Positions 20,530 to 29,949 of a stretch of DNA of 64,000 nt are shown here, piece by piece (the first letter of the stretch is position 1; every line of letters starts with the position of its first letter). The stretch covers positions 124,001 through 188,000 of the forward strand of contig WHVA01000153.1 in assembly GCA_015179125.1 (NCBI GenBank), given 5' to 3'. The stretch comes from Gautieria morchelliformis (taxonomy: Eukaryota > Basidiomycota > Agaricomycetes > Gomphales > Gomphaceae). The translations under genes and the position numbers were made by a program. A model generated the notes under the pieces. It searched no databases, was not told the DNA's origin, and saw only the letters and a program-made list of their open reading frames with translations.

Positions 20530-20849
20530 ACCATGAAGTGTCGAGATCATAAAACTTCATCGTCATCTTTCAATCGGTAATCTCCTTCACCTTTCAAGCT
20601 CCCAGTCGGAATCGTGTATAAGAACCAGCATCACAGGGCATCTAGGTTAGTTTATCACATCAGCAGTTGCGCAGCACGGACATGGATACAGAGGAACGCT
20701 CACACGGTATCCTTTGCATGAAAAGTTCCGCTCGTTTTTGTAGCAGACTATCCCTAACCACTGTACAAGGAAGGTGACATCGGGAGGTGCCTAATTGGGT
20801 CAAGCAGTTCAAGCCCTCACCCGAATTCGATTTTTAACTTCAAAGATAT
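20530..20849 (-). pseudogene. URM1: URM1 pseudogene, near full length
   Basis: This locus is collinear with the intact URM1 at 29,512-29,949 from beyond the start codon to the diglycine end, but it is broken. The position of the start ATG reads ATA (near 20,846), the coding part around ELFM carries an indel, and the segment before STLHGG is frameshifted. The intron region is still recognisable. Similarity ends at the start codon, which marks the edge of the duplicated block. Confidence 0.7.
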
Positions 20850-21402
20850 ATGGCTGCGCACGACATGAACATACTTGGGCTTTGGGCGCTGTGTGTCTGA
20901 TCTGCGTTTTAAGGTCACTATGAGTGTGAAATTAAAACCACGTATTTACATTGCGAGTGGAACATAGTTCAGGTTCGGTGTCGTTCATAATCCATTGCCC
21001 GCTACCGGCGGTGATCATGGGCTGGATTGAACTTCGCTACATCTTGGTCTATTCACGAATGTCCTGATGATACAACGTAGTCATTGAATGGTCGCCAGTC
21101 GCGCAATCCCCTGCACACGTGGATGCTGACAGATGAGCTGATCGCCGGCAATAAAAGTCGGGAGATGACACGCTGCTGGGAGCCAAGGTGTCACCCATAC
21201 CGTATCATTAACGTTCGTAATGACATCCAACGATTATCACCCTCAGGATGTCATGAGGATTCCATCGTATACGGGAAAGGGGAAGGATGATTTTCCAAGC
21301 TGGAATCAAGCCTATCGATGTCTCCGTCTAGTTGTCCTGCTTCGAGCGAGAGAAAGGCGTGCTTGCCTTGATTGCATCCCGTTGCCAGTAGCTGTCCACC
21401 AT

Positions 21403-21600
21403 GAAGATTGAGATCATAATAGCTTCATCGCCATCTTTGGTAATCTCCTTCAAGCTCCCAGTCGATGCCCAGTCGATACGTGTATAAGAACCAACATCAC
21501 AGGGTGTCTAGGTTAGTTGGTCACATCAGTATTTGCACAGCACGGACATACATAAAGAACGCTCACCGTGTCCCCTTCCATGAAAGGTTCCGCTCGTCCT
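21403..21600 (-). pseudogene. URM1: Truncated URM1 copy (3' half only)
   Basis: This interval contains the C-terminal coding part, the intron and a short stretch upstream ([12 protein letters not shown]), then homology stops abruptly and repeat DNA begins. The segment has lost the whole N-terminal part of the beta-grasp fold. An internal duplication of GATGCCCAGTC-like sequence near 21,465 adds damage. It is one of two truncated copies spaced about 1.02 kb apart. Confidence 0.6.
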
Positions 21601-23300
21601 TTCATTGTACATAGTAGCGTTGCTCCTCACCGAGGCACGACCTATCCAACCATGTCTTGGATTTATGTTGATTGCTAAGTCTAGTCTGCCTGCCTGATGG
21701 GCGCGTCTAGTGCATCTGCTCCCAGGCAGGCACCACCTCTGGATCATGGTAAAACATGTCGGGCCAGAACGGTCTGGTACTCGGTGTGGAGTTGCCGGAT
21801 TTGAAGACTGTAGCCCGGGTGCAGGTACAGGTGCAGATCCGTCAACCCTATTGAACGCTCTGCCCTCGTGCATCCCTTGAAGGACACTACGCTCGTGCTT
21901 CTCCGGCACGCTTCGCACGCCCTGCGCGATCCACTTGTCTCGTTCTCCCACAGGCGACTGGGTGCACAAGTTTAACCAGTTACGACAGACGAACATGTGA
22001 GGGTGGGAACGCGACCGGCCAAGACTAGCCGCTGACAGAAGGAGACGGGGTATGGGTGCTGTCATGCGCAGGTACCTGGGTGGTGGCATGTCAGGTGCGT
22101 CTATGCCTGTGCAAGCAGCACATCTCGCCGATGGTGATGGTGCACGAATCAACCAGCTCTGACGAGCATGGGAGGGTTGGAGCGCTACCGGCCGGCCGTA
22201 GACGGAAGGTGACGGAGTGGGTGTGTATAGGCCAGGGTCGAGGTGCAGGTCACAGGCTAGGTTCCACTCAGGATGTCACGAGGATTCCATCGTATACGGG
22301 AAAGGGGAAGGATGGTTGTCCAAGCTGGAATCAAGCCTATCGATGTCTCCGTCAAGTTGTCCTGCTTCCAGCGAGAGAAATGCGTGCTTGCCTTGATTGC
22401 ATCCCGTTGCCGGTAGCTGTCCACCATGAAGATTTGAGATCATAATAGCTTCATCGCCATCTTTGGTAATCTCCTTCAAGCTCCCAGTCGATACGTGTAT
22501 AAGAACCAATATCACAGGGCGTCTAGGTCAGTTGGTCACATCAGTATTTGCACAGCACGGACATGCATAAACAACGCTCACCGTGTCTCCTTCCATGAAA
22601 GGTTCCGCTCGTCCTTTCATTGTACATAGTAGCGTTGCTCCTCACCGAGGCACGACCTATCCAAACCATGTCTTGGACTTATGTTGATTGCTAAGTCTAG
22701 TCTGCCTGCCTGGTGGGTGCGTCTAGTGTATCTGCTCCCAGGTAGGCAGCACGTCTGGATCATGGAGTCGTCGATGGCGATGCCTTGCGAATCCCGGTAA
22801 ACCACGTCAGGCCAGCAGGTCTGGTACTCGGTGTGGAGTTGCCGGATTTGAGGACTGTAGCCCGGGTGCAGGTACAGGTGCAGATTCGTCAACCCTATTG
22901 AACGCTCTGCTTCGTGCCTCCCTTGAAGGACACTACGCTCGTGCTTCTCCCGCACGCTTCGCACGCCTTGCGCGATCCACTCGTCTCGTTCTCCCACAGG
23001 TGACTGGGTGCACAAGTTTAACCAGTTACGACAGACGAACATGTGAGGGTGGGAACGCGACCGGCCAAGACTAGCCGCTGACAGGAGACGGGGTATGGGT
23101 GCTGTCATGCGCAGGTACCTGGGTGGTGGCCTGTCGAGTGCGTCTATGCCTGTGCAATCAGCAGATCTCGCCAATAGTGATGGTGCACGAATCAACCAGC
23201 TCTGACGAGCATGGGAGGGTTGGAGCGCTACCGGCCAAGGCTGGCCGTAGACGGAAGGTGATGGGGTGGGTGTGTATAGGCCAGGGTCGAGGTGCAGGTC
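21600..23300 (+). repeat. Tandem pair of about 1.0-kb repeat units
   Basis: The sequence beginning TTCATTGTACATAGTAGCG at about 21,602 recurs at about 22,618, and CGACCGGCCAAGACTAGCCG at 22,012 recurs at 23,058. The period is therefore 1.02-1.05 kb. The unit includes the truncated URM1 copy and sequence related to repeat C. Long open frames on the minus strand (for example 21,526-22,152 and 22,617-23,444) lie in these repeats and differ between units, so they are not called as genes. Confidence 0.7.
22420..22618 (-). pseudogene. URM1: Truncated URM1 copy (3' half only), second unit
   Basis: Same structure as 21,403-21,600: a C-terminal segment reading ILVLIHVS...ISNLHGG, the intron with a GTGAGC donor, then a break. 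It still ends in diglycine but lacks the N-terminal half and has substitutions in the conserved acidic loop. It arose with the surrounding tandem duplication. Confidence 0.6.
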
Positions 23301-28984: not shown

Positions 28985-29019
28985 CCCATAAGAATGTTGT
29001 TTAAAGATTTTTTTGCTTT

Positions 29020-29274
29020 ATGCCTCAGATGCTTACATGTTTCCTATTCATAATTTGGTGGCCTGTCTTATCGACAAAGGCAAAGTTGCCAGATTTCAAA
29101 TCTAGATCGAGTGACGAAGGTTTAATTACTGTAATGCAATGGAAATACATCCGTCGTGGTTATCACGAAGATTGCTGCCGACTCCTCAACATTCCGAAAT
29201 TATTTACACCAGACGTGGTCGCCCTAGCCCGTGCACAGGGGGATAGGGAAGACGAGCGTGTAATGAAATCGTGA
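29020..29274 (+). CDS. Short open frame, 84 codons, unknown
   Basis: The frame opens with ATG shortly after the zinc-finger gene and ends at TGA. A part (LNIPKLFTPDVVALA) resembles short stretches in the duplicated regions near 20.3 and 21.1 kb (SRNPLHTRILTDELIA), so it may be a leftover exon shared by the duplicated blocks. No family is recognised. Confidence 0.2.
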   Translation: MPQMLTCFLFIIWWPVLSTKAKLPDFKSRSSDEGLITVMQWKYIRRGYHEDCCRLLNIPKLFTPDVVALARAQGDREDERVMKS

Positions 29275-29511
29275 CATGACGGTGGGCCGGGAGCCAAGGT
29301 ACAACTATACCGCACCATTAAAGTTCGTCGTGACATCCGATGATTATCACCTTCAGGATGTCATGGAAATCCATAAGATACCAACGTACGTGGGAAAGGT
29401 GAAGGATGTTTGTCCAAAGTGTCAGATGCTGGGGTCAAGCCGATCGACGTCTCCGTTCCTGCATCGAGTGAGAGAAAAGAATTCTTGCCGCACGTTCCGA
29501 GTAATTATGTA

Positions 29512-29949
29512 TTATCCACCATGAAGTGTCGAGATCATAACAATCTCATCGCCATCTTTCAATATGTAATCTCCCTCTCCTTCGAGCTCCCAGTCGGTAT
29601 CATTTATAAGAACCAGAATCCCAGGCCTTCTAGGTCGGGTAGTCACATCAGCATTTGCACACGCGGACATGATACAAAGGAACGCCCACACAGTGTCCCC
29701 TTCCATGAAGAGTTCCGCTCGTTCTTGTAGTAGATTGTCCTTAAGCCAGTGTAAAAGGAAGGTGACATCGGCAGGCGTTTGGGTTGCTTGGGTTAAGGAT
29801 TCCGCTTCGGATTGGGGAGTTTCAGTAGAATAAGAAGTGGAGATAGAAGACTTGTTCGCGAGGGCAGGAATAGACACAGTGTGGGAGCGTTGATTAGAGA
29901 ACAGCAGTTCGAGTCCTCCCCCGAATTCGATTTTCAAGTTGAAAGACAT
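29512..29949 (-). CDS. URM1: Ubiquitin-related modifier 1 (Urm1)
   Basis: Urm1 is a beta-grasp ubiquitin-like protein. Activated at its C-terminal glycine as a thiocarboxylate by the E1-like Uba4, it supplies sulfur for 2-thiolation of the wobble uridine of cytosolic tRNAs and can also be conjugated to proteins. The minus-strand frame starts at ATG 29,949 and ends at TAA 29,512. The C-terminus shows the family signature: [29 protein letters not shown] with terminal diglycine. A 60-bp GT-AG intron (29,630-29,689) sits between EGDTV and RPGIL. It is in frame, so retention would add 20 residues; splicing restores the family spacing and gives 125 residues, longer than yeast Urm1 because of a serine/threonine-rich insert near residues 33-55. 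It is divergent from the membrane-protein gene at 30,024 with 74 bp between start codons. It is the only intact one of four URM1-like loci here. Confidence 0.9.

Follow-up and report, generated by a model that had tools for sequence, protein, structure and literature searches.

The URM1 locus and its intact gene

The window analysed here is a stretch of 64,000 nucleotides (C175:124001-188000) taken from an assembly of 122 Mb in 1,113 contigs. The shortness of the intron described below and the style of the genome suggest a fungus; the fungal RNA families U3 and SRP gave no match, but neither did any of 14 controls, so that their silence carries no weight. It contains a ubiquitin-related modifier gene, URM1, that is arranged head to head with a divergent gene, as follows.

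29512..29949, minus strand: URM1, the sole intact copy found (Pfam match, alignment to solved chains, GT-AG intron)
29,690-29,949, minus strand: URM1 exon 1
29630..29689, minus strand: URM1 intron of 60 nt (GTGGGC...CTAG; length a multiple of three, no stops in the frame of the gene)
29,512-29,629, minus strand: URM1 exon 2, ending in Gly-Gly
29950..30023, no strand: 74 bp separating URM1 from the divergent gene, presumed to act as promoter for both
30024..31400, plus strand: divergent multi-exon gene with hydrophobic segments (from translation; provisional model, right end approximate)

The spliced URM1 protein comprises 125 residues and matches the Pfam family PF09138 (Urm1) with 121.5 bits (cut-off 21.8, E 1.9e-35), while the best match of the unspliced piece to the same family has an E of 3.9e-30. 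Solved chains titled ubiquitin-related modifier 1 align across the splice point without a 20-residue insertion, and the C-terminus reads STLHGG, so that the Gly-Gly pair stands directly before the stop codon. The earlier note on this DNA was right in placing an intact URM1 here; however, the frame is not coding throughout, and with the 60-nt intron removed the product has 125 residues and not the 145 of the frame in which the intron is read through.

URM1 functions elsewhere in tRNA thiolation and in protein urmylation, and by analogy these should also be the functions of the surviving gene, which is probably the expressed copy. A match to the pathway partner CTU2 is present in the assembly, as are 11 matches to the ThiF family, that of Uba4, the E1 enzyme of URM1; the genome contains one partner and the family of another. 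The divergent gene shows a sub-threshold similarity to rhomboid (E 0.012, 16.3 bits, cut-off 22.6), and the head-to-head geometry of the two genes is what suggests that the 74 bp between them form a shared promoter. A Pfam scan of 102 (66 + 36) of the 175 open pieces from three stretches, two of them partly overlapping, returned only Urm1, a weak ThiS match that is presumably to the same piece as the Urm1 match, and a piece of the GFO_IDH_MocA family. The last corresponds to an oxidoreductase exon at 34173-34637 on the minus strand (62 bits, cut-off 24). No tRNA was found in a scan of the window.

Three decayed copies of URM1

Within 10 kb of the live gene and on the same strand lie three decayed copies.

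20530..20849, minus strand: copy 1, a URM1 pseudogene with 5' and 3' ends (intron retained, internal deletion, frameshifts)
21150..21608, minus strand: copy 2, a 5'-truncated URM1 remnant (3' half, intron and downstream flank)
22267..22623, minus strand: copy 3, duplicated in tandem from copy 2 (96.3% identical with gaps excluded)

Copy 1 has ATA at the position of the start codon and runs into an in-frame stop at codon 11, and it also carries indels and frameshifts. It had been described as a full-length dead copy; the lost start and the internal frameshifts bear out that it is dead, but it is full-length only in having both ends, measuring 320 nt against 438 in the live gene with most of the loss inside exon 1. 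Copy 2 matches positions 29,262-29,726 and copy 3 positions 29,377-29,726, and in both about 223 nt of the gene, from the start codon onward, are unmatched. These two are therefore truncated at the 5' end, and not at the 3' end as had been proposed, and retain the last part of the gene together with its downstream flank. All three copies lack a stop codon directly after the Gly-Gly codons.

An intron of 62, 59 and 59 nt is kept in copies 1, 2 and 3, respectively, and therefore the copying was DNA-based. With frames disrupted in copy 1 (start lost, in-frame stop, frameshifts) and in copies 2 and 3 (5' end missing, gaps, stop lost), and with flanks and a larger block copied along with the intron, all three belong to the duplicated, or unprocessed, class of pseudogene, and they are probably silent. 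Retroposition, in which a URM1 mRNA would have been copied back into the genome to give promoterless copies, could account for the fact that copy 1 starts at the start codon with no promoter detected beside it, but processed copies lack introns, all three of these have one, and copy 1 moreover sits within a colinear block of about 7 kb; we regard this origin as practically dismissed.

The earlier note had proposed that the assembly be searched for further URM1 copies. One Pfam URM1 match was found, and a DNA search with URM1 and its downstream flank, which scores the best candidates only, gave five rows that all fall in this locus, namely the live gene, copy 1 (E 2.1e-77), the 5' tip of copy 1 (E 3.3e-6), copy 2 (E 9.7e-59) and copy 3 (E 5.5e-44). 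These Pfam and DNA searches of the assembly detected no URM1 copy outside the locus, leaving a single intact one. A profile built from the four copies likewise picked out these four loci in the window, and its next match had an E of 1.2.

A duplication breakpoint at the URM1 start codon

Copy 1 and the live gene are each the right-hand end of a longer duplicated block.

13277..20849, no strand: block A, ending in copy 1 (BLAST and Smith-Waterman pieces; left edge approximate)
23105..29949, no strand: block B, ending in the live URM1 (BLAST and Smith-Waterman pieces; left edge approximate)

The duplicated unit measures about 7 kb (7,573 bases in block A and 6,845 in block B), with a colinear core that pairs 15,860-20,849 with 25,235-29,949. 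Sensitive alignment extends the similarity leftward, pairing 15,408-15,559 with 24,946-25,082 (score 91, shuffle maximum 33) and 13,901-15,070 with 23,346-24,468 (score 291, shuffle maximum 50), and the BLAST pieces start at 13,277 and 23,105. The left edges are fuzzy, the similarity being found in pieces and not as a single alignment. With gaps excluded, the two blocks are 79.4% identical in the main left piece and 83.3% identical between copy 1 and the live URM1.

On the right, no homology was detected past the start codon, where the flanks align with a score of 27 (100 shuffles reached up to 32), and the right breakpoint of the duplicated block is the URM1 start codon. What had been seen as decay that comes to a halt there is more plausibly the breakpoint of a duplication. 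Nor was any counterpart of the 74-bp region detected in the spacer beside the copies (score 25; median 24 and maximum 36 in 200 shuffles). The proposal in the earlier note that a housekeeping gene was copied by segmental and tandem duplication without its promoter is supported by both results. A trace of the divergent gene in the spacer is borderline, its local alignment score of 44 being reached by none of 20 and none of 50 shuffles, whereas another 10 shuffles reached as high as 50.

Each block also contains a zinc-finger-like open frame, at 19182-19787 and 28404-28913, both on the plus strand. The two are 45% identical in amino acid sequence over about 98 codons, with changes at the three codon positions in the ratio 33:35:33, a dN of about 0.41 and a dS of about 0.67. 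Two more matches lie on contig C370, and no Pfam family scores above its cut-off. Their DNA identity is 67%, compared with 79% in the main non-coding piece, and this higher divergence is not explained by one simple duplication event.

Tandem units and a dispersed repeat

Copies 2 and 3 lie in a younger tandem array.

21242..23318, no strand: tandem pair of units, both about 1,025 bp long, in each of which a URM1 remnant is joined to a dispersed repeat
21891..22269, no strand: the dispersed repeat (five matches on contig C274)

The units span 21,242-22,269 and 22,267-23,318, and their duplication is later than that of blocks A and B. The matches on C274 lie within about 80 kb of one another and in both orientations, and neither of the two long frames over the repeat has a Pfam match. 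Related repeat pieces occur at 13.3, 22.9-23.3 and 63.7-63.9 kb, and since blocks A and B both have such pieces at their left edges, recombination between dispersed repeats is a plausible, though unproven, driver of the duplications.

The junction of copies 2 and 3 with a repeat that has five relatives on another contig would also be expected had a transposable element captured URM1 fragments and spread them. The URM1 DNA searches gave no match on C274 or elsewhere outside the locus, and no inverted repeats of at least 60 nt were found between 15 and 35 kb, which makes such a capture an improbable source of the remnants.

Further duplications were observed in the window. An inverted duplication of about 2.4 kb (13088-15512 and 61477-64000, 87–91% identity) continues past the right end of the window, where piece 10,000-10,501 (96% identity) abuts it directly, so that a segment of about 2.6 kb (10.5-13.1 kb) occurs in just one of the two copies. 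A second inverted duplication pairs 1-1665 with 50552-52052 at about 76–82% identity, and a cluster of mutually similar direct repeats with irregular spacing occupies 52596-57213. Duplicated pieces of at least 100 nt were found in five of the seven tiles of the window, heavily in two, and in one of four other 10-kb stretches (L039, which includes a 963-bp pair); these counts are too few to call local duplication in the region unusual.

Divergence and order of events

The live gene is 82.4, 81.6 and 81.6% identical to copies 1, 2 and 3, respectively, with gaps excluded, while copy 1 is 85.4 and 84.8% identical to copies 2 and 3, which are themselves 96.3% identical. Had misjoined haplotypes or reads produced false tandem copies, as an assembly artefact would require, differences of about 18% plus indels between the live gene and its copies and of about 4% between copies 2 and 3 would be hard to reconcile with it; all copies share a single contig of 222,510 bases, and the window has other diverged duplications. 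We consider an artefact highly unlikely.

At 24 ungapped sites, of which ten are exonic, copies 1-3 share a difference from the live gene. The shared changes include those at G90 and N96, residues that are the same in the five solved chains with alignments shown, out of eight matched, and therefore constraint was lost in the copy lineage before the copies were duplicated again. The polarity of these changes rests on conserved protein residues. Copy 2 retains about 130 nt of downstream flank that copy 1 lacks, so that it either split off before that loss or came via another intermediate. Three duplications are enough to account for the four copies, and of these just one, the first, involved a live gene; the at least four duplications of URM1 that had been supposed are not supported.

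Between the live gene and copy 1, 131 of 154 exon sites, 50 of 60 intron sites and 86 of 110 flank sites are identical. Such similar divergence of exon, intron and flank is as expected for one event and fits much of the change having fallen on a neutral copy. The earlier note had also suggested that the truncated copies might be antisense or small-RNA sources, and exon remnants 81–85% identical to the live gene could in principle be kept to regulate URM1 in this manner. There is no sign of constraint on them, however, since they have diverged to about the same degree in exon, intron and flank and contain many indels, and retention for such a role is very unlikely.

Repeat-induced point mutation (RIP) was considered and left no clear signature. 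CpG transitions amount to 48/194 (0.25) in the main block compared with 0.19–0.21 for other C contexts, and to 8/32 compared with 0.10–0.17 between copy 1 and the live gene; the clearest excess is in the unit of copies 2 and 3, with 11/111 (0.10) compared with 16/410 (0.04). Some pairs, for example the zinc-finger-like one, do not favour CpG, and the CpG observed/expected ratios and RIP-type indices of the blocks are similar to those of the remaining window. We read the pattern as at most mild, ordinary CpG decay.

The readable intron of the live gene

The intron of the live gene has a length of 60 nt, a multiple of three, and is open in its own frame, whereas in the introns of the copies none of the three frames is free of stops; its donor is GTGGGC, compared with GTGAGC in all three copies. 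One might suppose from this that the intron of the surviving URM1 is in the course of becoming coding. Unspliced mRNA would then yield a URM1 of 145 residues, 20 of them additional and placed immediately ahead of the conserved RPGI stretch, two forms of URM1 would be made, and the dead copies would preserve the ancestral intron. Chance readily gives a readable intron, the odds by our own estimate being one third for the length and about 0.4 for 20 stop-free codons. The live intron also retains its GT-AG ends and contains, as read by eye, a CTGAT that we take to be a branch-like motif. Since chance suffices, these features are kept and solved relatives have no insertion, splicing is the likely state of the live intron as judged from its sequence, and a conversion to coding sequence is improbable.

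Origin of the locus and comparison with known systems

The locus is with good confidence explained by a DNA-level tandem duplication of the unit of about 7 kb, after which the upstream copy, lacking a promoter, decayed and its remnants were duplicated twice more. In such a course the tandem duplication would have had its right breakpoint at the URM1 start codon, and the upstream URM1 (copy 1) would have been without a promoter from birth while the downstream copy still lay beside the 74-bp divergent promoter. Function would have been kept by the downstream copy and the upstream one would have decayed; its remnants may then have given rise to copy 2 through a further duplication with a spacing of about 0.8 kb, and duplication of the tandem unit of about 1,025 bp, dispersed repeat included, would have produced copy 3.

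The survivor resembles other members of the URM1 family (PF09138) in scoring far above the profile cut-off, in its Gly-Gly end and in aligning with the solved chains; it differs in that residues ~31-56 are unmatched in those alignments and in that its intron happens to be readable. Among the titles listed from the open-licence literature, none dealt with duplication of URM1 or with a basidiomycete URM1 intron.

Duplications that disregard the limits of genes occur commonly in animals. According to the review PMC3449122, partial duplicates, which are more likely to be non-functional at birth, make up 21 (or ~38), 63 and 76% of the duplicates in three nematode and fly data sets. In budding yeast, by the same review, partial and chimeric duplicates combined reach only 11% of small-scale duplicates, so that the class may be less common in fungi than in animals. 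The present case is one more instance of this well-described class and leaves the general view unchanged. It is a clean example of a breakpoint at a start codon, where the promoterless copy decays and the original retains the divergent promoter, and its pseudogenes offer a useful fossil record of the ancestral intron. Compared with the partial and unprocessed duplicates reviewed in PMC3449122, the likeness lies in DNA-mediated copying, disregard of gene boundaries, a tendency to be non-functional at birth and secondary recombination among fragments; nothing fundamental differs, the particulars here being that the breakpoint falls at the start codon and that a dead copy was itself duplicated again.
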